Both the position numbers and the translations under genes were made by a program. Positions 1 through 51,746 of a stretch of DNA of 58,042 nt are shown piece after piece (positions within the stretch are counted from its first letter, which is position 1; every line of letters begins with the position of its first letter). A model generated the notes under the pieces. The model was given only the letters and a program-made list of their open reading frames with translations. It made no database searches and was not told the origin of the DNA. Source of the stretch: an uncultured Eubacterium sp. (GTDB lineage Bacteria > Bacillota > Clostridia > Oscillospirales > Acutalibacteraceae); assembly GCA_944380635.1 (NCBI GenBank), contig CALWID010000014.1:1-58042 (forward strand), in the 5' to 3' direction.

Positions 1-1589
1 TTAAGGTTGCCGTAGACCTTGTTGACGAGGGTATGATTGATGAGAAAGAGGCTGTTCTCCGCGTTGAGCCTAAACAACTTGATTCTCTTCTTCATGACCA
101 GTTTGACGCAGACGCTCTTAAGGCTGCTACTCCTATCGGCAAGGGTATTGCCGCTTCTCCCGGCGCTGCCTGCGGTAAAGTTGTATTCACCGCTGCAGAC
201 GCTAAAGAGTGGGCGGACAGAGGTGAAAAAGTAGTACTTGTTCGTCTTGAAACTTCACCTGATGATATTGAAGGTATGGTTTCTTCAGAAGGTATTCTTA
301 CCGTTCGCGGCGGCACAACTTCTCACGCTGCCGTTGTTGCCCGCGGTATGGGCACTTGCTGCGTATCCGGCTGCGGCGATATTGCAATGCATGCTGATGA
401 AAAATACTTTGAACTCGGCGGCAAGAGATATAACGAAGGTGATTATATTTCTATCGACGGTTCAACCGGTAATATTTACGGTGAGGCTATCCCAACCGTA
501 AGCGCTACTATCAGCGGTGATTTCGGCCGCTTTATGGATTGGGCAGATAGTTACCGCACACTTAAAGTAAGAACAAACGCTGATAACCCGAGAGATACTG
601 CTCAGGCTCTTAAGTTCGGCGCAGAAGGCATAGGCCTTTGCCGCACAGAGCATATGTTCTTTGAGGGCGACAGAATTAAGTCAATCCGCAAGATGATTGT
701 TGCTAAGAACGCTGAAGCACGCGAGGCTGCTCTTGAGGAGATTCTTCCTCTTCAGCAGGGCGATTTTGAGGCTATGTATAAAGAACTCAACGGCCTGCCG
801 ATGACTATCAGATTCCTTGACCCGCCTCTTCACGAGTTCGTTCCAACTAAGGATGACGAAATTGCAGAACTTGCAGAAGAACTTGATATGAGCGCTAAGG
901 AACTCAAAGAAATTTGTGATTCTCTTCATGAAACAAACCCGATGATGGGCCACCGCGGACTTCGTCTTGCAGTTACCTATCCTGAAATTGCTAAGATGCA
1001 GACTAAGGCTGTTATCCGTGCCGCTATCAATGTTTCTAAAGAAACAGGCGTTAAGATTGAGCCTGAAATTATGATTCCGCTTTCATGCGACGCTAAGGAA
1101 CTTAAGTTTGTTAAGGATATTGTTGTTGAAACTGCTGATGCAGAAATCGCTGCAGCAGGCGTTGAAATGAAGTATGAAGTAGGCACAATGATAGAGATTC
1201 CGCGTGCTGCTCTTACAGCAGGCGAAATCGCTAAAGAGGCTCAGTTCTTCTGCTTCGGCACAAACGACCTTACTCAGATGACTTACGGCTTCAGCCGTGA
1301 TGACGCTGGTAAGTTCCTTGAGTCTTATTATGATAATAAGATTTTTGAATCAGACCCGTTCCAGAAACTTGATACAATCGGCGTAGGTAAACTTATGAAG
1401 ATGGCAGTTGCAGACGGTAAAGCAACACGCCCCGACCTTCACTGCGGAATCTGCGGTGAGCACGGCGGCGACCCAAGTTCAGTTGAGTTCTGCCACGAAA
1501 TCGGTCTTGATTATGTATCTTGCTCACCGTTCCGTGTTCCGATTGCCCGCCTTGCAGCAGCACAGGCCGCTATCAAGAGTTCTAAATAA
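1..1589 (+). CDS. ppdK: Pyruvate, phosphate dikinase, C-terminal part (5' end outside window)
   Basis: Cytoplasmic enzyme interconverting pyruvate, ATP and Pi with PEP, AMP and PPi. The frame is open from base 3 with no start codon suited to the family, so the N-terminal nucleotide-binding part lies upstream of the window. About 528 of the usual ~875 residues are present. Counting from the Met codon at 33, the swivelling phosphohistidine domain holds GGTTSHAAVVARG with the phospho-accepting His near residue 98. The PEP-binding TIM barrel follows and ends in HCGICGEHGGDP, which carries the catalytic Cys, then the usual SPFRVPIARLAAAQA tail. A strong hairpin terminator follows directly, so this is the end of its transcript. 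In Clostridia the enzyme often works in PPi-linked glycolysis, which fits the glycolytic genes further along. The assignment is very secure. Confidence 0.97.
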   Translation, partial: KVAVDLVDEGMIDEKEAVLRVEPKQLDSLLHDQFDADALKAATPIGKGIAASPGAACGKVVFTAADAKEWADRGEKVVLVRLETSPDDIEGMVSSEGILTVRGGTTSHAAVVARGMGTCCVSGCGDIAMHADEKYFELGGKRYNEGDYISIDGSTGNIYGEAIPTVSATISGDFGRFMDWADSYRTLKVRTNADNPRDTAQALKFGAEGIGLCRTEHMFFEGDRIKSIRKMIVAKNAEAREAALEEILPLQQGDFEAMYKELNGLPMTIRFLDPPLHEFVPTKDDEIAELAEELDMSAKELKEICDSLHETNPMMGHRGLRLAVTYPEIAKMQTKAVIRAAINVSKETGVKIEPEIMIPLSCDAKELKFVKDIVVETADAEIAAAGVEMKYEVGTMIEIPRAALTAGEIAKEAQFFCFGTNDLTQMTYGFSRDDAGKFLESYYDNKIFESDPFQKLDTIGVGKLMKMAVADGKATRPDLHCGICGEHGGDPSSVEFCHEIGLDYVSCSPFRVPIARLAAAQAAIKSSK

Positions 1590-7327: not shown

Positions 7328-7430
7328 ATGTTTTAAAGTATGGTATACTGATATGTAAGGTGATTAGCGTGAAAATTTACGCTAATCCGGATTATATTAC
7401 CCTAAAAAATAATTTTGGGATGGCTGTAAT

Positions 7431-7508
7431 CACCATTAACGCCTTATCAGGCTACAATAAGGCGTTAATAATTTCAATTTTTTTGTAGCCTGAAAGGTTG
7501 GTGATTAA
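7431..7508 (+). promoter_or_regulatory. Pseudoknot-type leader element, copy 1 (upstream of response regulator)
   Basis: A conserved CACCA (7431-7435) precedes a perfect 12-bp stem, TTAACGCCTTAT (7436-7447) with ATAAGGCGTTAA (7457-7468). The whole 9-nt loop CAGGCTACA (7448-7456) is exactly complementary to TGTAGCCTG (7484-7492), which abuts the ribosome site GAAAGG (7492-7497); 11 nt separate that site from the ATG. A second copy with compensatory differences precedes mrp at 22127-22210. A further hairpin (GATTAGCGT with ACGCTAATC, 7362-7387) lies upstream, and TAATCACC (7427-7434) is complementary to GGTGATTA just before the start codon. Inference: an RNA pseudoknot that gates ribosome access. 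Confidence 0.65.
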
Positions 7509-8204
7509 ATGATGCAAACCGTTCTTGTTTGTGATGATGACAAGGCGATTCTTGATTCAATAGAGATATATCTTAAGGCGCAGGGATTTAATGTGCTTAA
7601 AGCGGAAAACGGAAATGAAGCGCTTAAAATAATAGAGGAAAATGAAATTCACTGTATGGTGCTTGATATTATGATGCCGGGTCTGGACGGGCTTCAGACA
7701 ACGCTTAAAATCAGAGAACTGCACAAAAGTTTTCCTATAATAATGCTTTCTGCCAAATCGGAGGATACGGATAAGATAGCGGGCCTCGGTTTCGGCGCTG
7801 ATGATTATGTTACAAAGCCGTTTAATCCGCTTGAACTTGTTGCGCGGGTAAAATCGCAAATACGGCGCTATATTTCATTTGCGGGATTTGTGCAGAAAAA
7901 ATCACAACTCGTTACCGGCGGGCTTGTTGTTGATACGGACGCCAAAACCGTGAGCGTAGACGGCGAACCCGTTAAACTTACCGCAAGGGAATATATGATA
8001 CTTGAATATCTTTGCAAAAATATGGGGCGTGTGCTCTCTTCCGCTCAGATATATGAGGCGGTGTGGAACGAACCTGCATTTAAATCCGAAAAAACAGTTA
8101 CCGTGCATATAAAAAACATAAGGGATAAAATAGAAATAAATCCCAAAGACCCGAAATATATTAAGGTGGTGTACGGACTTGGATACAAAGTGGATAAAAT
8201 TTAA
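7509..8204 (+). CDS. OmpR/PhoB-family response regulator (VanR-like)
   Basis: 231 residues. The receiver domain (about 1-120) has the acidic pocket CDDD, the phospho-acceptor Asp53 in VLDIMMPGLDG, the conserved Thr/Ser switch in IIMLSAKS, and Lys in YVTKPFNP. The C-terminal winged-helix domain (about 130-231) has LTAREYMILEYL, a recognition segment TVTVHIKNIRDKI and the closing KVVYGLGYKV. It is a DNA-binding transcription factor activated by the histidine kinase encoded next, whose start overlaps its 3' end by 26 bases. A VanY-like carboxypeptidase gene follows, so the likely regulon is peptidoglycan modification. ATG codons at 7509 and 7512 are both possible. The leader element upstream suggests translational control in addition to transcription. 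Confidence 0.94.
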   Translation: MMQTVLVCDDDKAILDSIEIYLKAQGFNVLKAENGNEALKIIEENEIHCMVLDIMMPGLDGLQTTLKIRELHKSFPIIMLSAKSEDTDKIAGLGFGADDYVTKPFNPLELVARVKSQIRRYISFAGFVQKKSQLVTGGLVVDTDAKTVSVDGEPVKLTAREYMILEYLCKNMGRVLSSAQIYEAVWNEPAFKSEKTVTVHIKNIRDKIEINPKDPKYIKVVYGLGYKVDKI

Positions 8205-10650
8205 GTACGGCAGTTTCTGCAAATTTCTTTCGGCGTTTATTGCCGCCGTGCTTGCCGGCTTATGCTGCGTTAATGCGGTAACGGTAATCCGCCACGCGGC
8301 TTATTTCGGTTTGGACGGTATTATAAACAACAAAAAAGTTGGGTATATGAATACCTATGAATTTAAAAGCGCTCTTGAGCAGGATATAGAAATTATTATA
8401 GATGATGTGAGCCACAACGCAAATCAGGCGGCGTATGATTCGGCAAAAGCGGCAACGGTGGCAAGTGCCGCTGAATTTGTGAATTACGCAAAAACATTTA
8501 TTGAGGATTATAAAAATCAACTTGCTGAATATCAACTTTGGGAAAACGGATATTCAAACGAAGAGTATCTTTATGCTCCGTATCTTGATATACCGTATAC
8601 CGACGAACGGTACGGCGTGTATTCGCTTAATTACAACGATTACGAAGACAGCCTCCAGTTTGAAATGTATATTGCGGATGATGTTATAGATGAAAACAAT
8701 AATTTAGATTTCACCGTTAATAATGTTGAAGACTTAACTCAAAATGAACTAACGGAAACTCTTAATACGCAGTTTGGCAACCAGGCGTATCATATTTACT
8801 GCCACGATACTGCCGAAGCCGGCGAATCCGCGGCGCTCGGGCTTAAAAATATCAGGTATTACGCCGAATTTTCAGACGGCTCAGTTGCGGCAAATGTGCA
8901 AAACACGGGTGAAATCAATTCTTTAATTCAAAACGAAGGATATGAATATTTTACCTATGAAAATTCAGATTCCTCGTCAAGCGATAACCTTAGCGATATA
9001 TATGTTTACGACGGCGATTATTACGGCGATACCGCTGAGAATGTTCGCCTTTATCTTGCCGTTAACCCCGCTTTTTCAGAAAACGATTATTACGGAACGG
9101 TAAATCAAAATCTTACCGAAGTTCCGTCTGCAAACGCGAATACTGCGCTTTATATTGCGCTGTTTTCACTAATCGGTTTAGCCGCTTTCGCCGTTATTTC
9201 AGTCCGCCTTGCGGGCCATAGAAGCGACGGCACTGTTGCCGCCGCGCCAGTGGATAAAATCCCGCTTGATATAAGTTTTATACTTGTCGCTGCTTTTATC
9301 GCGGTTCTTATGATGCTTGTGTTTCTGTTTCTTGAGGGCGAAAACAGCGCCATATTCGGGTATGATGATTCGAATTTAAATTTAGTTGGTTATTTGGATT
9401 TTTATAAATCCCGGTGGTATAAAAATATACTGTTTGCAATAGGCGCCGCGGCATATCTTGCTGTTTTGGGATTTGCCGTTTCGCTTGCAAGAAATTCAAA
9501 AACCGGTGTAAATGTTTTTAAGCACACCGCTATATATAAAATTTTCCGAGCGGTTTTCAGTTTCTTTAAGCGGATTTTTAAACAATTAAAAAATTTCTTT
9601 AAAACTATTGCTTTTATGCCGCAAAGGCTTGATAAAAAGGCGGTTTTGGCGGTTGGGCTGTTTTCGGCTTTTAATATCATAGGAATGTGCTTTGCCGTTC
9701 TTTTCGGCGCGGTTTTCGGCGCTAATTTCGCCGCGTTTCTGATTGGCGCATTTTGCTTTATAGTTGTAATTGCGGTGGATTGCGTTTGCGTGTTCAAGGC
9801 GTTTAAGTTTATGCGCGCTTTGGATATACTGATAGATTGCAGCGCAAAAAACGAGCCTGTTGATATTGACACGGAAAAACTGCCGCAGTGCCTGAAAACG
9901 CTTGCCGAATCCCTTGATAAAAAGAACACCGAACTTCAGGACGCCGTTATCCGCGCAATAAAAGACGAACGCACAAAAACAGAACTTATTACGAATGTTT
10001 CACACGATTTGAAAACCCCGCTCACTTCCGTAATCAATTATATAGACCTGCTGAAAAAGTGCAATATAAAAGACGATACGGCAGTTGGATATATGGAAGT
10101 TATAGATGAAAAGGCAAACCGCCTGAAAAGGCTTATTGAGGACCTTATTGAGGCGTCCAAAGTTTCAACGGGGAATATTGTGCTCAATAAAACAAAGATA
10201 AATCTTAACGAACTTGCAACGCAGGCGATTGTTGAGTATACTGATGATTTTGAGAAAAAAGGCCTTGATTTGATATTTGATGAAACTGACCGGAAGCATA
10301 TCGTATTTGCTGACGGCACAAAGATTTACCGCGTGTTTGAAAATCTGCTTTCAAATGCAAAGAAATATTCCGTGCCTGGCTCAAGGGTTTATGCCCGCCT
10401 TTATTCAGATGACGGTTATGGCTGTTTTGAAATAAAAAATATTTCAAAAGAGCCGCTTAATATCACTGCTGATGAACTTATGGAGCGGTTTGTCCGCGGC
10501 GATAAATCAAGAAGTGAGGAGGGCAACGGTCTGGGGCTTTCCATAGCGAAGGAACTTTGCAGCCTTAACGGCGGTAAACTTTTGATTTCCATAGACGGCG
10601 ACCTCTTTAAAGCAACGGTTATGCTGCCTAAAAACGGCAATGCAGAATAA
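8179..10650 (+). CDS. Membrane sensor histidine kinase with large extracytoplasmic domain
   Basis: 823 residues, longer than a usual VanS. One membrane helix (about 15-37) is followed by an extracytoplasmic domain of roughly 275 residues rich in Tyr, Asn and Asp. Next come three helices (about 320-345, 361-385, 410-430) and a further helical pair around 490-550. The HisKA domain has NVSHDLKTPLTS with the phosphorylated His, then an ATPase domain with N box NLLSNAKKYS and G box GNGLGLSIAKEL. The start is a TTG at 8179 inside the regulator gene, preceded by AAGGTGGTG; no ATG is better placed. It should phosphorylate the preceding response regulator. The external domain is not recognised; with VanY next door a cell-wall signal is plausible but unproven. 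Confidence 0.9.
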   Translation: MDTKWIKFKYGSFCKFLSAFIAAVLAGLCCVNAVTVIRHAAYFGLDGIINNKKVGYMNTYEFKSALEQDIEIIIDDVSHNANQAAYDSAKAATVASAAEFVNYAKTFIEDYKNQLAEYQLWENGYSNEEYLYAPYLDIPYTDERYGVYSLNYNDYEDSLQFEMYIADDVIDENNNLDFTVNNVEDLTQNELTETLNTQFGNQAYHIYCHDTAEAGESAALGLKNIRYYAEFSDGSVAANVQNTGEINSLIQNEGYEYFTYENSDSSSSDNLSDIYVYDGDYYGDTAENVRLYLAVNPAFSENDYYGTVNQNLTEVPSANANTALYIALFSLIGLAAFAVISVRLAGHRSDGTVAAAPVDKIPLDISFILVAAFIAVLMMLVFLFLEGENSAIFGYDDSNLNLVGYLDFYKSRWYKNILFAIGAAAYLAVLGFAVSLARNSKTGVNVFKHTAIYKIFRAVFSFFKRIFKQLKNFFKTIAFMPQRLDKKAVLAVGLFSAFNIIGMCFAVLFGAVFGANFAAFLIGAFCFIVVIAVDCVCVFKAFKFMRALDILIDCSAKNEPVDIDTEKLPQCLKTLAESLDKKNTELQDAVIRAIKDERTKTELITNVSHDLKTPLTSVINYIDLLKKCNIKDDTAVGYMEVIDEKANRLKRLIEDLIEASKVSTGNIVLNKTKINLNELATQAIVEYTDDFEKKGLDLIFDETDRKHIVFADGTKIYRVFENLLSNAKKYSVPGSRVYARLYSDDGYGCFEIKNISKEPLNITADELMERFVRGDKSRSEEGNGLGLSIAKELCSLNGGKLLISIDGDLFKATVMLPKNGNAE

Positions 10651-10661
10651 AGGGCTGAATT

Positions 10662-11339
10662 ATGAAGAGCAAAATAAGAATTCTTATTGCGGCGCTTTGC
10701 GTATGCGCGGCGGCTTTTGCCGGGGTGTGGGCGTTTGCCTTAAACGGATTGGGATTTGACAGTTACGGCCGTATCGTTTTTACCGAAAAAGAAGATAATC
10801 CCGAACTGACGATTGTAAACGCGGATAATCCCGTGCCGGATGACTGGAACGCCGAACTCACAACGCTGTCAAACGGCGAGCAGGTTGCAAGTATGATATA
10901 TCCATCGCTTCAGGATATGTTTGACGATATGCGCGCGCAGGGAATATATCCTTTTGTGCGCGCCGGTTATCGCTCAAGAGAAGAGCAGGAAAAAGTGCTT
11001 GAAGATAAAATTTCCGCTTATCAGAGCGAGGGATATTCTGAATCGCGCGCCCGCGAACTTGCGCTTGAAACGGTGGCGCAGCCGGGAACAAGCGAGCACG
11101 AACTCGGTTTGGCGGTTGATATAAATGCTGATGATGAACTCAGCACAAACGAAGAGGTTTATTCCTGGCTTGCTCAGAATTCGTATAAATACGGATTTAT
11201 TCTGCGCTATCCGCAGGATAAAGAGGATATTACAGGCATAGATTATGAGCCGTGGCATTACAGATATGTGGGAAAAGACGCCGCCGCGAAAATTTATAAC
11301 GCCGGCGAGTGCCTGGAGGAATATTTGGGCAAAAACTGA
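10662..11339 (+). CDS. VanY-like D-alanyl-D-alanine carboxypeptidase (peptidase M15B)
   Basis: 225 residues with an N-terminal signal anchor (about 6-27) and an extracytoplasmic metallopeptidase domain. The zinc site is visible: SEHELGLAVDI supplies His146 and Asp153, and EPWHYRYVG supplies the later His; the substrate-binding YRSREEQ segment is also present. The enzyme trims the terminal D-Ala from peptidoglycan stem peptides, affecting cross-linking and vancomycin-type antibiotic targets. It starts 11 bases after the kinase gene and completes a regulator-kinase-VanY operon. There is no VanX, VanH or ligase gene here, so this looks like a housekeeping or stress-responsive carboxypeptidase module and not a transferable glycopeptide-resistance cluster. 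Confidence 0.9.
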   Translation: MKSKIRILIAALCVCAAAFAGVWAFALNGLGFDSYGRIVFTEKEDNPELTIVNADNPVPDDWNAELTTLSNGEQVASMIYPSLQDMFDDMRAQGIYPFVRAGYRSREEQEKVLEDKISAYQSEGYSESRARELALETVAQPGTSEHELGLAVDINADDELSTNEEVYSWLAQNSYKYGFILRYPQDKEDITGIDYEPWHYRYVGKDAAAKIYNAGECLEEYLGKN

Positions 11340-21301: not shown

Positions 21302-22126
21302 TTATTTACCCTCAAGCGCGCTTACAAATTCGTCAAGTTCGCTAAGGTGAACATCTTCTACTTTGCCATCGTCAACCAGGCGGTTTATCTGCGGGTCTAT
21401 CGGCAGTTTTGCCAGCACGGGCAAACCGAGTTCAGCCGCAGTTTCGTCTATTTTGGATTCGCCGAATATATAATGCTTATTGCCGCAGTCCGGGCATACA
21501 AAATAACTCATATTCTCAACAAGTCCAAGTACGGGAATATTCATAAGTTTAGCCATATTTAAAGCCTTGCTTACTATCATTTTAACAAGGTCCTGCGGGG
21601 TGGAAACTATAACAATTCCGTCCACGGGAATACTTTGGAAAACAGTCAGCGCAACATCGCCTGTTCCCGGCGGCATATCAACAAAAAGATAATCAAGTTC
21701 GCCCCAGCGAACTTCCGTCCAAAACTGCTCCACAACGCCGCTTATCACGGGGCCGCGCCAAACAACGGGCGATTCCTCATTATCAAGCAGCATATTTATG
21801 CTCATAATTTTTATTCCGCTTTTTGTTACATTCGGCAGCAGAAATTCGCTGTCCTGCATGGCTCTCTTTGAAACGCCGAATGATTTTGGCACGGACGGGC
21901 CTGTAATATCAGCGTCCAGCACGCCGACTTTAAGCCCCGCTTTTGCGCATGCAGAGGCAAGCAGGCAGGTAACAAGGCTTTTTCCTACCCCTCCTTTGCC
22001 GCTTACAACGCCTATAACTTTTTTAATATCAGAGCCTTTGTTCATCGGCTTTAAAAAACTTTGCGGCTCTTTTCTTTCGCCGCAGTTCTGCGCGCAGGAA
22101 GAACAGTTATGACTGCATTCTGCCAT
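21302..22126 (-). CDS. mrp: Mrp/ApbC/NBP35-type Fe-S carrier P-loop ATPase
   Basis: 274 residues from the ATG at 22126. I chose this start because the ribosome site GAAAGG lies 11 bases before it, while the ATG at 22135 is too close to that site. The N-terminus MAECSHNCSSCAQNC has a four-cysteine pattern like NBP35. The deviant Walker A is GVVSGKGGVGKSLVT; DADITGPSVPK and the DMPPGTGD switch follow. A CPDCG pair near residue 213 is the conserved CXXC for Fe-S cluster binding at the dimer interface. The protein carries or transfers Fe-S clusters in the cytoplasm. Its leader holds the second copy of the pseudoknot element seen at 7431. A promoter TTGATA-17-TATAAT lies further upstream. Confidence 0.93.
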   Translation of the reverse strand: MAECSHNCSSCAQNCGERKEPQSFLKPMNKGSDIKKVIGVVSGKGGVGKSLVTCLLASACAKAGLKVGVLDADITGPSVPKSFGVSKRAMQDSEFLLPNVTKSGIKIMSINMLLDNEESPVVWRGPVISGVVEQFWTEVRWGELDYLFVDMPPGTGDVALTVFQSIPVDGIVIVSTPQDLVKMIVSKALNMAKLMNIPVLGLVENMSYFVCPDCGNKHYIFGESKIDETAAELGLPVLAKLPIDPQINRLVDDGKVEDVHLSELDEFVSALEGK

Positions 22127-22210
22127 ATTTACCATAGCCTTTCTGGCTGCAAAATAATATCAGTAAATTTATTTAACGCCTTATTACAGCCGGACAAGGC
22201 GTTAATGGTG
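22127..22210 (-). promoter_or_regulatory. Pseudoknot-type leader element, copy 2 (upstream of mrp)
   Basis: Read on the minus strand: CACCA (22210-22206), stem TTAACGCCTTGT (22205-22194) with ATAAGGCGTTAA (22184-22173), loop CCGGCTGTA (22193-22185), a 21-nt linker, and TGCAGCCAG (22151-22143) abutting GAAAGG (22143-22138), 11 nt before the ATG. Eight of nine loop positions pair with TGCAGCCAG, one by a wobble. Against copy 1, an A-T loop pair is replaced by G-C, and a C-G by a U-G wobble, so pairing is kept while sequence changes. Confidence 0.65.
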
Positions 22211-22274
22211 TTTTTGAGTTAAATATATTCGTAAAAAATAATCGCTTTTATGAATATTATAAACTTTTTTAGGG

Positions 22275-22303
22275 ATTATATCATATAAAACAACTTTTAT
22301 CAA
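22275..22303 (-). promoter_or_regulatory. Promoter of mrp
   Basis: On the minus strand, TTGATA (22303-22298) and TATAAT (22280-22275) with a 17-bp spacer. The transcript start near 22268 puts the whole pseudoknot element inside the mRNA leader. Confidence 0.75.
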
Positions 22304-37491: not shown

Positions 37492-37606
37492 CGCTCTCAT
37501 AACAGAACTTGTTATTTTCGCGAGGTACAAAAAAGCGCCGCTTTTTGAACTGCTTCCGCTCTCATAACAGAACTTGTTATTTTCGCGAGGCATAAAAAAA
37601 TGCCGC
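37492..37606. repeat. Two tandem 50-bp repeats upstream of the Mor-like gene
   Basis: A 34-bp unit (37492-37525 and 37557-37590) is identical in both copies. It begins CGCTCTCATAACAG and ends TTATTTTCGCGAGG, with the dyad ATAACA-GAACT-TGTTAT in its centre. Similarity continues for another 16 bp (pattern GGYAYAAAAAARYGCCGC), so the period is 65 bp with a 15-bp unique gap. Each unit can form a bulged hairpin. Being in the upstream region of a DNA-binding protein, these are operator candidates; a repeated RNA element is the alternative. No other copies were noticed in the window. Confidence 0.75.
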
Positions 37607-37622
37607 CTGATAAACAGGCGGC
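37584..37622 (-). terminator. Orphan terminator, minus strand
   Basis: GCCGCCTG (37602-37609) pairs with CAGGCGGC (37615-37622) around ATAAA; on the minus strand the stem is followed by seven T's. No minus-strand gene lies upstream of it before 37775, so it may end a small RNA. Confidence 0.6.
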
Positions 37623-39804: not shown

Positions 39805-39851
39805 AAAAGGGACTGCCTTTCGTATGCGAAAGGCAATCCCTTTTGTTTTTT
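39805..39851 (+). terminator. Terminator after the ECF sigma gene
   Basis: Long stem AAAAGGGA-CT-GCCTTTCG with CGAAAGGC-AA-TCCCTTTT, then GTTTTTT. Its 3' half is part of the 58-bp direct repeat that flanks the Bce-like cassette. Confidence 0.85.
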
Positions 39852-39880
39852 ATATGAAATTTGCGGAAATATGCGTTATT
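39823..39880. repeat. 58-bp direct repeat, left copy, at the edge of the Bce-like cassette
   Basis: Starts TATGCGAAAGGCAATC and ends ATATGCGTTATT; identical to 44587-44644 at 56 of 58 positions (differences at the C/A after AATC and the G/A after AAATTT). It carries the second half of the upstream terminator and reaches into the stop codon of the permease gene. Confidence 0.9.
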
Positions 39881-41903
39881 CCCTGCCGCCGGTAACGATC
39901 GTATAGTAGGATCGGGAAGTAATGCGGTAAACGATCACATACAAAACCGCAAAGACCAGGAAACAGGCAACCGTTGTGCCGATCAGCAGAGTCGGGTTTG
40001 TGAAACCGAGCAGCGTGATTGTTCGGTTGATCAGCGGAAAATTGAATGCAAGGTGGATTCCCGCCGTGATTAGCGGCGCGAAAAAGACGGTGAGCACCTG
40101 CGAGTTAATGCTCTTTTTGATTTCTTTTTCCGTCATGCCCACTTTTTTCATAATGTCAAACCTCGAGCGGTCCTCATACCCCTCGGAAATCTGTTTGTAG
40201 TACATGATCAGCACCGCGGCAAAAACAAATACAATGCCAAGCAGGATCCCAAGGAAAAACAATCCACCGTAAAGCCCCATAAAAGCCTCCAGGCTGTCCG
40301 CAATGCTGTCTGTTGAAATATCGCAGCCCGAAGCGGTGAGTTCGGTATTACTGTCCATATTTTCGTTAAATCGGTCAGTTAGGGCGGATAATTCTTCCGT
40401 TTCGCAGTCAAAATCAGAACCTATGATATAATGTGAACTCAAGACTTTGTTGCCGTTTGGTTCAGTTATATCCGCAAACCGGGCAATATATTCGTCGTAA
40501 TTCGGCACAAAAAGATAAATGCTGTCGTTTACAGAACTGGTATCGATTCCGTAGCCGATATAGTCATCCACATATTTCTTGATCTTCAGTTCGCCTGTGC
40601 CGTTGATGTTAACTGTGCTTTCGTCATAGTCCGAAAGTTTTGTTATATAGGCGATAGCCTCGTTTTCCCCAAGTGTTTCGTTTTTGCCCATCAGGCGGTT
40701 GTAGTCCTCCAGCGGCACGATCAGTACATTATATGCATTGCTGTAATAAAAACCGTTCGTAACGATCTGAAAATCATTGCCGCTGACATTTGCTGAAAAA
40801 TCAGAAAGGCGGTAACTGATCTTGTTCAGTGGGGTAACGCCGCTTTCTTTTGCTGTTCTTTCAAATATATTATTTGTGCTGTTTATGATGCTGTCATCAA
40901 TACTACCGTCCTGTGCAGCGCGAATATCTATTACCAGATCGCGGGGATAGCGTGTGCGCAGGCTTTCGTCCATGCCTGTATACAGGCACACCGTGCAGGA
41001 AATCATCACAAGCACCATTGTGCTGAGTATGCAGATGGAGGCAAGCCCTGCACCGTTTCTTTTCATTCGGTATGCCATGGTGGAAACGGATATAAAATGA
41101 TTGGTTTTGTAATAATAATGCTTGTTTTTCTGCAACGCCTTGCAAAGCGCAACGGAGCCGGAGATAAACAGCATATAGGTTGCAACGATAACCATAATGA
41201 CGGCAACGAAGTACATAAAGATCGCCGCCATAGGATCGGTGATCGTTACGGCAATCACATAGGCGCCGGCAAGAATCAGTGCGCCGAGTACGGCAATCAC
41301 CCAGTTCGCTTTCGGCGGCTTTTCGCCGGTGCTTTCGCTTTTCAGCAGGTCAACCGGGTTGGTCATATGGATCTGCCGCAGCGCACTGAGCAGGATCAAA
41401 ATAAAGATCACGGCAAACCACAAAAATGTTGTGCCTATGGAATCCGGCGAAATGCTTAATGAAAAATCTGCGCTGGCTGTTAAAATGTTTACCATTAAAA
41501 GCTGGGCGAATTTTGAAAACAGCAGTCCGCACGCCAGACCGGATGCCATGGAAATGCAGAAGATCACGGCGTTTTCCCAAAACAAAACTCTGGAAAGATT
41601 GATTTTATCCATTCCCAGAATGTTGTAAAGGCCGAATTCCTTTTTTCTTCTGCGTATTAAAAAGGAATTGGTGTAAAACAGGATCAGCAAAGAAAAAATG
41701 CCAAGCACATAGGTGCCGAAAACCAGAATACCCTGTATCTGTTCGCCGCCCGTTACTTCAAGCATGGATTCGTCTTTGCTTAAAAACGCCACAATGTAAA
41801 ACATGGCGATCATTCCCACACAGGTCAGAATATACGGCAGGTACAGTTTTTTATTCTTTTTTATGCCGTCCCATGCAAGGCGCAGGTAAAATGCTTTTTT
41901 CAT
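39876..41903 (-). CDS. BceB-type ABC transporter permease (FtsX domain)
   Basis: 675 residues, ten predicted membrane helices with the FtsX core repeated at both ends, and a large extracellular domain of about 200 residues between helices 7 and 8 (roughly 315-520). This is the layout of BceB/VraE-like permeases that sense and remove peptide antibiotics such as bacitracin, nisin or mersacidin-type lantibiotics from lipid II-cycle intermediates. The ATPase gene overlaps its start by 4 bases, and a two-component system follows upstream, making a complete BceRS-BceAB set. Base usage differs from neighbours: GATC occurs many times here and almost never outside the cassette. Confidence 0.93.
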   Translation of the reverse strand: MKKAFYLRLAWDGIKKNKKLYLPYILTCVGMIAMFYIVAFLSKDESMLEVTGGEQIQGILVFGTYVLGIFSLLILFYTNSFLIRRRKKEFGLYNILGMDKINLSRVLFWENAVIFCISMASGLACGLLFSKFAQLLMVNILTASADFSLSISPDSIGTTFLWFAVIFILILLSALRQIHMTNPVDLLKSESTGEKPPKANWVIAVLGALILAGAYVIAVTITDPMAAIFMYFVAVIMVIVATYMLFISGSVALCKALQKNKHYYYKTNHFISVSTMAYRMKRNGAGLASICILSTMVLVMISCTVCLYTGMDESLRTRYPRDLVIDIRAAQDGSIDDSIINSTNNIFERTAKESGVTPLNKISYRLSDFSANVSGNDFQIVTNGFYYSNAYNVLIVPLEDYNRLMGKNETLGENEAIAYITKLSDYDESTVNINGTGELKIKKYVDDYIGYGIDTSSVNDSIYLFVPNYDEYIARFADITEPNGNKVLSSHYIIGSDFDCETEELSALTDRFNENMDSNTELTASGCDISTDSIADSLEAFMGLYGGLFFLGILLGIVFVFAAVLIMYYKQISEGYEDRSRFDIMKKVGMTEKEIKKSINSQVLTVFFAPLITAGIHLAFNFPLINRTITLLGFTNPTLLIGTTVACFLVFAVLYVIVYRITSRSYYTIVTGGRE

Positions 41904-44586: not shown

Positions 44587-44644
44587 TATGCGAAAGGCAA
44601 TCACTTTTGTTTTTTATATGAAATTTACGGAAATATGCGTTATT
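44587..44644. repeat. 58-bp direct repeat, right copy, at the metH end of the Bce-like cassette
   Basis: Same sequence as 39823-39880 with two differences, ending in the metH stop codon. The partner hairpin arm that makes a terminator in the left copy is degraded here (CACTGTCCCTGCAC instead of GACTGCCTTTCG), so metH may have lost its own terminator by the insertion. Confidence 0.9.
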
Positions 44645-46952
44645 TTCCGCCGAAAAAAGCGCGGGCAATACGCACTGTTTCCATTGCGTCTTTTGCGTAC
44701 CAGTCGGCGTGTATCATATCTGCGTAAGACTGGGTGAGTACCGCTCCGCCCACTATTACTTTTGCGTTTGTGTTTCGGTGCAGAAGTTCAATCGTTTTTT
44801 CCATTGCGGGCACGGTAGTGGTCATAAGCGCTGAAAGCCCTACTAATTTAACATCGTTTTCTTTAACGGATTTAAGCACTTCTTCTTCCGGCACATCTTT
44901 GCCCAAGTCTATAACATCAAATCCGTAATTTGAGAGCAGTACTTTTACTATGTTTTTGCCTATATCGTGAATATCGCCGTGAACGGTGGCTATAATTACC
45001 GTTTCGCCGCGCTCTTCTTTTTTGCCGCTCATTATCATCTTTTCCTTAATTACATCAAAAGCGGCTTTGGCGCTGTCCGCACTCATAAGAAGTTGGGGCA
45101 GGAAAATACGGTTGTTTTCAAACCCGACGCCAACTTCGTCCAGCGCCGGAATTATATAATTGTTGATAACATCAAGCGATTCGTTCGTTTTAAGCAGTTC
45201 GGCGGCGCACCTTGCCGCATCTTCTTTAACGCCTTTAACAATAGCCGTGTGCAGAGTCGTTTCACCCGCCGTGGCAGGCTGCTCCGGCACGGTTACGCTC
45301 TCTATATATTCGGCGCAGTTTTCGTCCAGTCCGCTGAGCGCGTTGAAAGCGTAATAAGCGTTCATCATACTTTGCGAATTAGGGTTAATTATTCCGGCGG
45401 AAAGCCCGCTTTGCAGAGCCAGCGTGAAAAACGCCGTGTTAACCGCGTCCCTTTTCGGCAGTCCGAAAGAAATATTAGAAACGCCCAAAACGGTGTTTAC
45501 ACCCAGCGTGCGGCGTATATATTCCACGGCTTTCAGCGTTTCGGCGCCGTTTGAGGAATCCGTGCTTACAGTCATTGTAAGCGCGTCAACAATCAAGTCT
45601 TTTTTGTCTATACCGTAATCAGCGGCGGTGTTTATTATTTTTTCGGCAATTTTTATTCTGCCTTGCGCCGTCTGCGGTATTCCGCTTTCATCAAGGCAAA
45701 GGCAAACCACAACCCCGCCGTATTTTTTGGCAAGCGGGAACACTGCCGCCATATTTTCCGCCTTTCCGTTTACGGAATTTATCATCGGTTTGCCGTTGTA
45801 TATTCTAAGCGCTTTTTCAAGCGCCGCCGTATTTGAAGTGTCTATCTGAAGCGGAGATGAAATAACGCCCTGAAGGCTTTGCACCGCTGTTTCCATCATT
45901 TTAACTTCGTCTATTTCCGGCAGCCCCACATTTACATCAAGTATATGCGCGCCGGCGTCCGTCTGTTTTAATCCCTCTTTTATGATATATTCAATATCGT
46001 TTCTGCGCAGCGCCTCTTTAAACAGTTTCTTACCGGTGGGATTTATGCGCTCGCCTATTATTACGGGCTTTTTGCCTATTTCTACCGTTTGGCTGTAAGA
46101 AGAAACAAGCGTAAAGTTTTTCTTTTCAGGGATATTTGCGGGAATATCACGGCAAAGTTCAATCATTTTTTTAATGTGTTCCGGCGTTGTGCCGCAGCAG
46201 CCGCCAAGGTATGATACGCCTGTATCAGCCGCTTTTTTCATATCCCGCGCGAAATCATTGGGCGAAACATTGTAAACCGTTTTGCCGTTTACGCTTTCCG
46301 GCAGGCCGGCATTTGGCTGAACTATAATCGGCAGAGAAGTCCATTTCCTTATCTCTTCAATAAGCGGCAGCGTCTGCGCAGGGCCCAGCCCGCAGTTAAA
46401 GCCTATGGCGTCAACTCCCAGCCCTTCAAGCATAGTTACGGCGGTTTTAACATCGGCGCCTGTAAGAAGTCTGCCTTTTTCGTCAAATATCATTGTAACA
46501 AAAACGGGCAGGCTGCAGTTTTCTTTTGCGGCAAGCACTGCGGCTTTTACCTCATAAGTATCGCTCATTGTTTCAATAAGCACAATATCGCTGCCGTCCT
46601 TGCCTGCATTAATCATCTGGGCAAAAATATCAACTGCTTCTTCAAAATCAAGTTCGCCCATAGGCTTTAAAAGTTTGCCGGTTGGGCCTATGTCAAGCGC
46701 AACTTTTTTGCCCGTGCTCCCCGCAAGGCGCACGCCCGCCTTTATAACTTCCTCAGGTTCTTTTATTTTAAGCCTGTTTGCGCCGAAAGTGTTTGTTGTT
46801 ATATATTCGCTTCCCGCGGCGGCATATGCCCTGTGAACGGCAAGCACTTTATCACTGTCTGTAATATTAAGCAGTTCGGGCAGTTCGCCCGCTTTAAGCC
46901 CCGTGCTTTGCAGCATAGTGCCCATACTGCCGTCAAAAAATTTAATGTTCAT
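44640..46952 (-). CDS. metH: Cobalamin-dependent methionine synthase, lacking the activation domain
   Basis: 770 residues in three modules. The homocysteine-binding barrel (1-290) has FFDGSMGTMLQ, GFNCGLGP and the zinc ligands GGCCGTTPEHI. The methyltetrahydrofolate barrel (about 305-560) has IIGERINPTGKKLFK and LDVNVGLPEIDEV. The B12 domain (about 600-770) has VHGDIHDIGKNIV with the cobalt-ligating His. The C-terminal AdoMet reactivation domain of ~1200-residue MetH is missing and is encoded by the adjacent gene, whose end overlaps this start by 11 bases. It makes methionine from homocysteine in the cytoplasm and needs cobalamin. The gene runs up to the 58-bp repeat. Confidence 0.95.
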   Translation of the reverse strand: MNIKFFDGSMGTMLQSTGLKAGELPELLNITDSDKVLAVHRAYAAAGSEYITTNTFGANRLKIKEPEEVIKAGVRLAGSTGKKVALDIGPTGKLLKPMGELDFEEAVDIFAQMINAGKDGSDIVLIETMSDTYEVKAAVLAAKENCSLPVFVTMIFDEKGRLLTGADVKTAVTMLEGLGVDAIGFNCGLGPAQTLPLIEEIRKWTSLPIIVQPNAGLPESVNGKTVYNVSPNDFARDMKKAADTGVSYLGGCCGTTPEHIKKMIELCRDIPANIPEKKNFTLVSSYSQTVEIGKKPVIIGERINPTGKKLFKEALRRNDIEYIIKEGLKQTDAGAHILDVNVGLPEIDEVKMMETAVQSLQGVISSPLQIDTSNTAALEKALRIYNGKPMINSVNGKAENMAAVFPLAKKYGGVVVCLCLDESGIPQTAQGRIKIAEKIINTAADYGIDKKDLIVDALTMTVSTDSSNGAETLKAVEYIRRTLGVNTVLGVSNISFGLPKRDAVNTAFFTLALQSGLSAGIINPNSQSMMNAYYAFNALSGLDENCAEYIESVTVPEQPATAGETTLHTAIVKGVKEDAARCAAELLKTNESLDVINNYIIPALDEVGVGFENNRIFLPQLLMSADSAKAAFDVIKEKMIMSGKKEERGETVIIATVHGDIHDIGKNIVKVLLSNYGFDVIDLGKDVPEEEVLKSVKENDVKLVGLSALMTTTVPAMEKTIELLHRNTNAKVIVGGAVLTQSYADMIHADWYAKDAMETVRIARAFFGGK

Positions 46953-51640: not shown

Positions 51641-51716
51641 GGTGGAGCATAGGGGATTCGAACCCCTGACCTCCACACTGCCAGTGTGGCGCGCTCCCGA
51701 ACTAATGGGTAAACGA
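51641..51716 (-). tRNA. tRNA-Ala (GGC), intact 3' part, disrupted 5' part
   Basis: On the minus strand the 3' part is normal: anticodon stem CCACA/TGTGG with loop CTGGCAG (anticodon GGC), T-arm AGGGG TTCGAAT CCCCT, acceptor strand ATGCTCC with the U expected for the Ala G3-U70 pair, then ACCA. The 5' part fails: where GGGGCAT and a D-arm should be, the sequence is ACCCATTAGTTCGGGAGCGCG, with no matching acceptor strand and too few bases for a D-loop. It looks like a tRNA gene broken or replaced on its 5' side at an integration junction. A functional copy must exist elsewhere. Confidence 0.6.
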
Positions 51717-51746
51717 CCCTAAAGGTTAATTTTTGACGGAAGAGGT

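Follow-up and report, generated by a model that had tools for sequence, protein, structure and literature searches.

Riboswitches of the preQ1 and SAM-II classes sequester the Shine-Dalgarno sequence (SD) by means of a pseudoknot lying beside it, and alternate between two mutually exclusive folds. A different use of base pairing is found at the ends of IS200/IS605 transposons and in palindrome-associated elements, where hairpins are accompanied by guide strands, about 4 bp in the known cases, which pair with terminal or flanking cleavage-site sequence. Bacterial miniature repeats (MITE, REP/BIME, BOX and ERIC) are short, non-coding, hairpin-forming and dispersed, and multiply in lineage-specific bursts (PMC2229807, in part). 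The example of mobile/repeat sequence candidates (MRSC) in the part of PMC11109978 used here is a single long stem near transposase genes; MRSCs occur in many copies per genome and have covarying stems, as does the element reported below, whose position at start codons does not belong to the MRSC description in that part.

The element described here resembles miniature repeats in all of the properties listed above and, like MITEs in particular, is non-coding and multicopy and has empty orthologous sites. Unlike miniature repeats, it is confined to the SD-start spacer, has a single orientation, brings an SD at near-fixed spacing and consists of a long, covarying RNA capable of forming a pseudoknot. 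It shares with IS200/IS605 ends hairpins whose neighboring strands pair with the flank or terminus, and pairings that might act as guides exist both with the flank and at the right end; in contrast to IS200/IS605, however, there is no Y1 transposase in the three copy-richest genomes searched, the target is the SD-start spacer, and the pairings are far longer than those of IS200/IS605 or REP-RAYT systems. With the preQ1 and SAM-II riboswitches it has in common an SD-adjacent pseudoknot and two exclusive folds, both predicted, but it is mobile, present in dozens of copies before unrelated genes and matched by no Rfam family. None of the families tested fits, and searches of an open-access library showed no recognizable description; the element is a candidate new kind of element of the SD-start gap.

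The stretch of DNA analysed (the window; 58,042 nucleotides) belongs to a 2.0-Mb genome, G000, whose nearest relative among those searched is G027. A preliminary description had reported, before a response-regulator (RR) gene and before mrp, a stem, a 9-nt loop, linkers of 15 and 21 nt, a loop-complementary strand, and GAAAGG exactly 11 nt ahead of ATG, all of which we verified in place in both copies. The loop pairing extends over 9 of 9 positions in the RR copy and over 8 of 9 in the mrp copy, counting one G-U, with one C-A mismatch. Missed at that stage were an outer stem, P1 (UAAUCACC 7427-7434 with GGUGAUUA 7500-7507 in the RR copy; ACCAU with AUGGU in the mrp copy), a pair of hairpins upstream of the RR copy that have no counterpart in the mrp copy, and the SD as an alternative partner of GCCUU. 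The mrp ATG referred to is 22126-22124; the longest mechanical open reading frame (ORF) begins 9 nt upstream, at 22135. The features at the two sites are as follows.

7357..7364, plus strand: native SD of the RR gene, AAGGTGAT, about 145 nt from the start codon and collinear with the empty site of G027
7362..7387, plus strand: hairpin A of the RR copy, made up of host flank GATTA (7362-7366), core GCGTGAAAATTTACGC (7367-7382) and mirror arm TAATC (7383-7387)
7400..7424, plus strand: hairpin B, reduced in the RR copy (CCC/GGG with AAAA/TTTT, then ATGGC); the full form is seen in L025 and relatives
7427..7434, plus strand: P1 5' strand, RR copy (covariation; permutation)
7436..7447, plus strand: P2 5' arm, RR copy, containing GCCUU (7441-7445), the SD-pairing alternative
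7448..7456, plus strand: loop CAGGCTACA, RR copy, covarying with 7484-7492
7457..7468, plus strand: P2 3' arm ATAAGGCGTTAA, RR copy
7484..7492, plus strand: loop-complementary strand TGTAGCCTG, RR copy (covariation)
7492..7497, plus strand: GAAAGG, the element's own SD, RR copy (family-wide spacing; retained in 15 of the 17 weakest G000 copies)
7500..7507, plus strand: P1 3' strand, RR copy, between SD and start codon (covariation)
7509..8204, plus strand: response regulator gene (Pfam PF00072 and PF00486)
22275..22303, minus strand: promoter-like TTGATA-17-TATAAT of mrp, common to the empty site (read by eye)
22227..22232, minus strand: remnant of the native mrp SD
22205..22209, minus strand: P1 5' strand ACCAT, mrp copy
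22194..22205, minus strand: P2 5' arm with GCCUU, mrp copy
22185..22193, minus strand: loop, mrp copy
22173..22184, minus strand: P2 3' arm, mrp copy
22143..22151, minus strand: loop-complementary strand, mrp copy
22138..22143, minus strand: GAAAGG, the element's SD, mrp copy
22131..22135, minus strand: P1 3' strand ATGGT, mrp copy
21302..22126, minus strand: mrp, an Fe-S carrier ATPase gene (Pfam PF10609), its start homologous to that of the relative

On the window, covariance model R2 returned both sites, their own reverse strands and otherwise weak matches (E of at least 0.34), and an Rfam scan of the window returned tRNAs only. A tRNA match at 51643-51719 (minus) lies just above its cut-off (30.7 vs 29 bits). 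Genes for the response regulator, a histidine kinase and a VanY-type D-Ala-D-Ala carboxypeptidase stand in a row at 7509-11339, and VanR models match the response regulator, all below their cut-offs.

The two sites belong to a repeat family. Allowing up to 3 mismatches, the stem-loop pattern occurred 17 times in G000 and 0 times when the reversed pattern was used as a control, and a covariance model built from those 17 stem-loops (R1) gave 54 matches in G000 and 5 in G027 at E<=0.01. We read 56 G000 places, namely the R1 matches and two slightly weaker ones, which leaves 54 besides the window pair (64 matches were reduced to 56 by dropping 6 reverse-strand duplicates and 2 truncated by locus ends); in the relatives, 88 of 91 matches were used, L057 and L064 repeating L248 and L268 and one being a reverse-strand match of L259. 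The G000 copies have a single orientation and lie, nearly all of them, immediately 5' of the start codons of unrelated genes. By a permissive test a start codon stood at the 3' end of 53 of the 56 G000 places (ORF of at least 30 aa; one of the 53 is a 30-aa frame within the next tandem copy at L027) and of 85 of the 88 places in relatives (ORF of at least 40 aa). Under a strict definition of a gene start, an ORF of at least 60 aa with an in-frame stop no more than 90 nt upstream, 114 of 138 copies qualified; random positions did so in 240 of 5760 cases and occurrences of AAAGG, counting the copies themselves, in 221 of 1472. The distance from AAAGG to the start was 13-14 nt in 35 of 52 G000 copies and in 72 of 86 copies of relatives, the window copies having 11 nt.

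Pfam scans of 22 of the 53 downstream G000 ORFs revealed no common pathway or theme. By the short names that we assigned from the Pfam matches, the genes led by the element encode a P-type ATPase, a glycosidase, HIT, MATE, PurF, nicotinate phosphoribosyltransferase, a sugar-binding protein, LeuA, TyrRS, starch synthase, a PCC domain, flavodoxin, YchF, alanine racemase, a GT28 glycosyltransferase, a CysK-type PLP enzyme, a PLP decarboxylase, MetRS, a CoaD-like protein and DnaN, in addition to the response regulator and Mrp of the window pair. Three tandem copies, the first a remnant, precede one MATE gene (L027) and two precede the starch synthase gene (L036). On 49 of 80 fetched mrp loci R1 had 0 matches, and the element is thus not a usual companion of mrp. 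The initial proposal of a regulator shared by the RR gene and mrp therefore has to be given up, since a mobile repeat whose 56 G000 copies stand in front of genes without a shared theme is not particular to these two. Numerous copies scattered without relation to start codons had been named as the outcome that would speak against a functional RNA; the copies are numerous, but they are not unrelated to start codons.

Comparison with the nearest relative showed that most of the sites that could be compared are empty there. The G027 response regulator was the closest (94%) among 60 genomes of the genus, and 12 orthologues of element-bearing G000 genes could be placed in 341,591 bases of G027, where 11 of them, including both window sites, lacked the element and the twelfth had a worn one. 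This survey comprised 13 tblastn matches with ORFs of at least 60 aa as queries, one of which was skipped (alignment from residue 53); orthology here means the best match within the fetched stretches, with identities of 75-99%. A clear native SD and spacer were present at 10 of the 11 empty sites; at cysK, where the spacer does not align collinearly, the evidence is weaker. The sequences read GAGGTGATTTTATT-ATG for RR, ACGGAGATGTTTGAA-ATG for mrp, AAAGGAGTTTTTATT-ATG for leuA, AAGGAGAACCGACT-ATG for ychF and ACGGAGGATCAAA-ATG for dnaN. Judged by eye, upstream promoter-like boxes are retained at RR, mrp and ychF, and the T-box upstream of leuA in G000 has a similar sequence in G027. Taken together, the native SDs of the empty sites and the retained upstream boxes place the element between native SD and start codon. 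The native SD has decayed at mrp (ACGGAG to ACGAAT), at L053 (AAAGGAG to AAAAATTAG) and at dnaN, and several other copies retain a good one. The RR, leuA and ychF flanks showed no clear target-site duplication against G027, their spacers being short and diverged, and neither a terminal inverted repeat nor a duplication was established for the element. One gene has worn copies of differing sequence in both G027 (L354 12173-12255) and G000 (L082 8948-9046), which point either to an ancient insertion common to both genomes or to a hot spot.

A complete element is about 140-190 nt long and non-coding. On the 5' side come, in order, the host flank, a core near GTGTGAAAAATCACAC, an arm mirroring the flank, some 10 nt and hairpin B with a basal AT bulge; on the 3' side follow the P1 5' strand, then P2 and the loop that it closes, a linker rich in U, the loop-complementary strand, AAAGG and the P1 3' strand, from which a few nt lead to the start codon. 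At least in L056, L059, L252, L269 and L276, a different 5' module that these copies share, TTGACC...CGAGCGGTCGCAAACGAACCC, takes the place of hairpin A, and L268 and L269 have otherwise identical 3' modules without and with this alternative module, one each. The sequence AACGCCTTATCMGGC presumably resembles enterobacterial REP sequences. A leader peptide running across the element was rejected, the frames and stops varying among copies (by eye).

Covariation was evaluated in an alignment (A5) of 40 copies picked for their diversity rather than sampled at random. For the nested structure, which comprises P1, GCCUU/AAGGC and the loop helix, 93.8% of cells were paired vs 83.7+/-0.6 in shuffled alignments, 105 cells were changed on both sides vs 33.2+/-5.0, and the covariation score was 0.302 vs 0.119+/-0.008, with 0 of 500 shuffles as high in either of the last two measures; sliding the alignment by 1-3 columns left 8-14 both-side cells. 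Counting the pairs that had at least one both-side change gave an unremarkable figure (10 vs 8.6; 78 of 500 shuffles). Covariation was weak among the first 17 G000 copies, with 8 both-side cells vs 4.5+/-2.0, a covariation score attained by 103 of 500 shuffles and further pair types below the shuffled mean. GCCUU/AAGGC is nearly invariant, so covariation speaks neither for nor against that pairing. P2 covaries more weakly, with 70.2% of cells paired (inner stem 87%, outer stem 50%) and 18 both-side changes vs 8.6+/-3.3; the inner P2 is supported by covariation between columns 23 and 38 (A-U 16, G-C 11, C-G 1), the former of which the nested fold leaves without a partner. Independently of any alignment, the strands of 137 copies (144 less 6 without AAAGG and then 1 duplicate) paired better with their own partners than with permuted ones, both for P1 (1067.5 vs 952.3+/-9.5, maximum 983) and for the loop helix (1087 vs 985.0+/-6.8, maximum 1008.5), and at least 8 of 9 positions were paired in 85 copies for P1 and in 92 for the loop helix, as opposed to 3 and 1 in the reversed-strand control. 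The claim that loop and downstream strand change together is thereby borne out over 40 diverse copies, with the pairing kept in relatives. The earlier failure to name a riboswitch class also stands, since the Rfam 15 covariance models, at gathering and at permissive thresholds, found nothing on the element.

These data, in combination with the empty sites and the 56 copies, reveal as a false choice the initial preference for a functional RNA over a dispersed repeat: a structured RNA does precede the start codons, and the element is structured RNA and dispersed mobile repeat simultaneously. Its mobility, position and structure are well supported.

The SD of the element may take part in two exclusive folds, both partly backed by covariation. 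In the minimum-energy fold, GCCUU (or CCUU) lies on the SD within P1 in 14 of 17 leaders folded; the exceptions to a clean nested fold are L050 (SD changed) and L093, which form P2, and L327, which is mixed and has AAAUG in place of AAAGG. For the RR copy, the rough energies, which include no pseudoknot penalty, were -31.4 kcal/mol for the core, -16.1 for P1+P2 alone and -14.0 for the loop duplex; the P2 energies of relatives derive from alignment columns and are probably underestimates. The nested fold hides AAAGG, whereas the pseudoknot originally proposed frees it, so that any hindrance of ribosome binding is better explained by the nested GCCUU/AAGGC pairing than, as first suggested, by the pseudoknot. 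Because GCCUU can pair either with the SD or with its own hairpin arm, the SD may be switchable. Among the 17 weakest G000 copies GAAAGG was kept in 15 and GCCTT in 2, compared with 36 and 34 among the other 39, although the survival of GAAAGG in weak copies is inflated by a search model that rewards it; that the SD part outlasts the rest is as expected if AAAGG translates the gene. GGUGAU was rejected as the true SD of the family, since it could play that part at best in the G000 subfamily, the P1 3' strands of relatives being AUGGGAAUU, AUGUGAAUU and others.

At the other end of the element, the host sequence that follows the native SD is frequently mirrored by an arm of the 5' hairpin. For the 80 of 144 copies whose core was recognized by script, a few of them misplaced, Watson-Crick runs between flank and arm summed to 232 vs 104 when permuted (sd 9; maximum 140 of 10,000). 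Within genomes having 3 or more copies, the sum over 64 copies was 183 vs 94.9+/-11.1 (maximum 138 of 5000), and 102 vs 36.3+/-8.2 past the first two bases. The pairing reaches 12 bp in L307, where it extends into GGTG of the SD, and at leuA and RR the paired flank is host sequence; the score was 0 in 24 of the 80 copies, in some because the core was cut elsewhere (L037, L053), and 1 in the ychF copy. G021 copies identical at 86-87 of 88 positions still differ in the mirror arm. Flank pairing together with such differences among near-identical copies suggests that the arm is set at or near insertion, and it seems to be either copied from the target or chosen to fit.

The reading that we consider probable is that both window sites are copies of a mobile, non-coding element which inserts in sense orientation into the SD-start spacer and brings its own, possibly bistable, SD. 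Insertion would leave the native SD too distant from the start codon and free to decay, and the gene is then likely to be translated from the AAAGG of the element. Switching is plausible: the off state would be the nested fold, with GCCUU paired to AAGGC within P1, and the on state the pseudoknot, in which the P2 3' arm would hold GCCUU, the loop would pair downstream and AAAGG would be free. The mirrored host flank may be a trace of target recognition during insertion. A more ambitious version, which we put forward tentatively, is a new class of mobile element that locates translation-initiation sites by base pairing, its arm pairing with SD-proximal host sequence, and whose bistable ribosome-binding module brings dozens of unrelated genes under its translational control, perhaps governed by a single signal. 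A selfish repeat that keeps to the SD-start gap by supplying its own SD and possibly a switchable fold would have an unusual lifestyle for a compact genome and would give rise to new translational control, and it raises the question of which machinery recognizes translation-initiation regions as insertion targets. The 11 filled and empty gene pairs of two close relatives constitute a direct test set.

Three other explanations share part of this evidence. Strong covariation, SD sequestration and an invariable leader position are what would be expected of a conventional riboswitch or protein-binding leader, inherited vertically and serving a genus regulon with many members, in the manner of a second-messenger riboswitch; we nevertheless give this little credence, given that the element is missing from 11 of the 12 orthologues placed in G027, that copy numbers range from 0 to 54 across 37 genomes of the genus, that the 22 Pfam-scanned downstream proteins have no pathway in common, and that two to three copies may stand in tandem (L027, L036). 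It seems to us very improbable that the element is, or used to be, excised from the mRNA like an intron, rejoining native SD and start, with flank and mirror arm as an exon-guide pairing: the host flank directly 5' does pair with an arm inside the element and a good native SD is retained in several copies, but no group I or II intron or other Rfam family matches, the native SD has decayed at mrp, L053 and dnaN, and every copy carries an SD of its own.

An element mobilized as single-stranded DNA like IS200/IS605 ends, whose fold acts in transposition alone without any part in regulation, is unlikely in our judgment, even though at both ends a hairpin-adjacent strand pairs with terminal sequence (left, flank and mirror arm; right, P1). 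Sense-strand combinations in the loop helix number 50 G-U vs 13 A-C, related copies being counted repeatedly, which favours folding of this strand as RNA or as single-stranded DNA and would be expected of the latter as well; for P1 the counts (25 vs 19) do not discriminate. Against it are pairings of 9-11 bp rather than about 4, a target that is exclusively SD-start, the persistence of AAAGG in worn copies, and 0 Y1 transposases in G000, G015 and G021, the three copy-richest of the genomes searched. A Y1 transposase was found in 20 of 38 genus genomes; a reverse transcriptase was found in neither G015 nor G021, and G000 has one weak match to it in a 994-aa frame. Neither enzyme tracks copy number, and both were rejected as movers.

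The hosts of the element are gut Clostridia. Within the genus R1 matched 29 of 37 genomes, and in other genera of the order it matched 0 of 23. In the rest of the class 14 of 390 other genomes, from 11 other genera and 8 other families, were matched under strict filters (E<=1e-4), and across the phylum R2 matched G000 alone among 398 genomes, also under strict filters and with the share of the class among them unspecified. In ten of the 11 loci read from other families (L318-L328) an ORF begins at the 3' end and the build recurs in other letters, while L320 has no ORF start there and a different 5' part; exact CCTCC (anti-SD) follows the arm in 3 of these 11 copies. An exact 29-position pattern had 0 occurrences in a genome contig collection that may lack records close to the window's genome, an exact hairpin-B pattern had 0 in a viral contig collection, and distant blastn with one full copy per search returned 0 phages and 0 plasmids.

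Two genes carry copies in two species each, a purF-like gene (L030 in G000, L274 in G021) and ychF (L039 in G000, L189 in G082), either by shared insertion or as hot spots. At L092, positions 1283-1444 (minus) match the ribosomal protein L20 leader below its cut-off (36 vs 58.7 bits). Elsewhere in the window, a 66-nt direct repeat, 92% identical, occurs at 39823-39888 and 44587-44652, at the 3' ends of the minus-strand ORFs 39876-41903 and 44640-46952, and two 59-nt copies, 86% identical and 65 nt apart, occupy 37492-37550 and 37557-37615.
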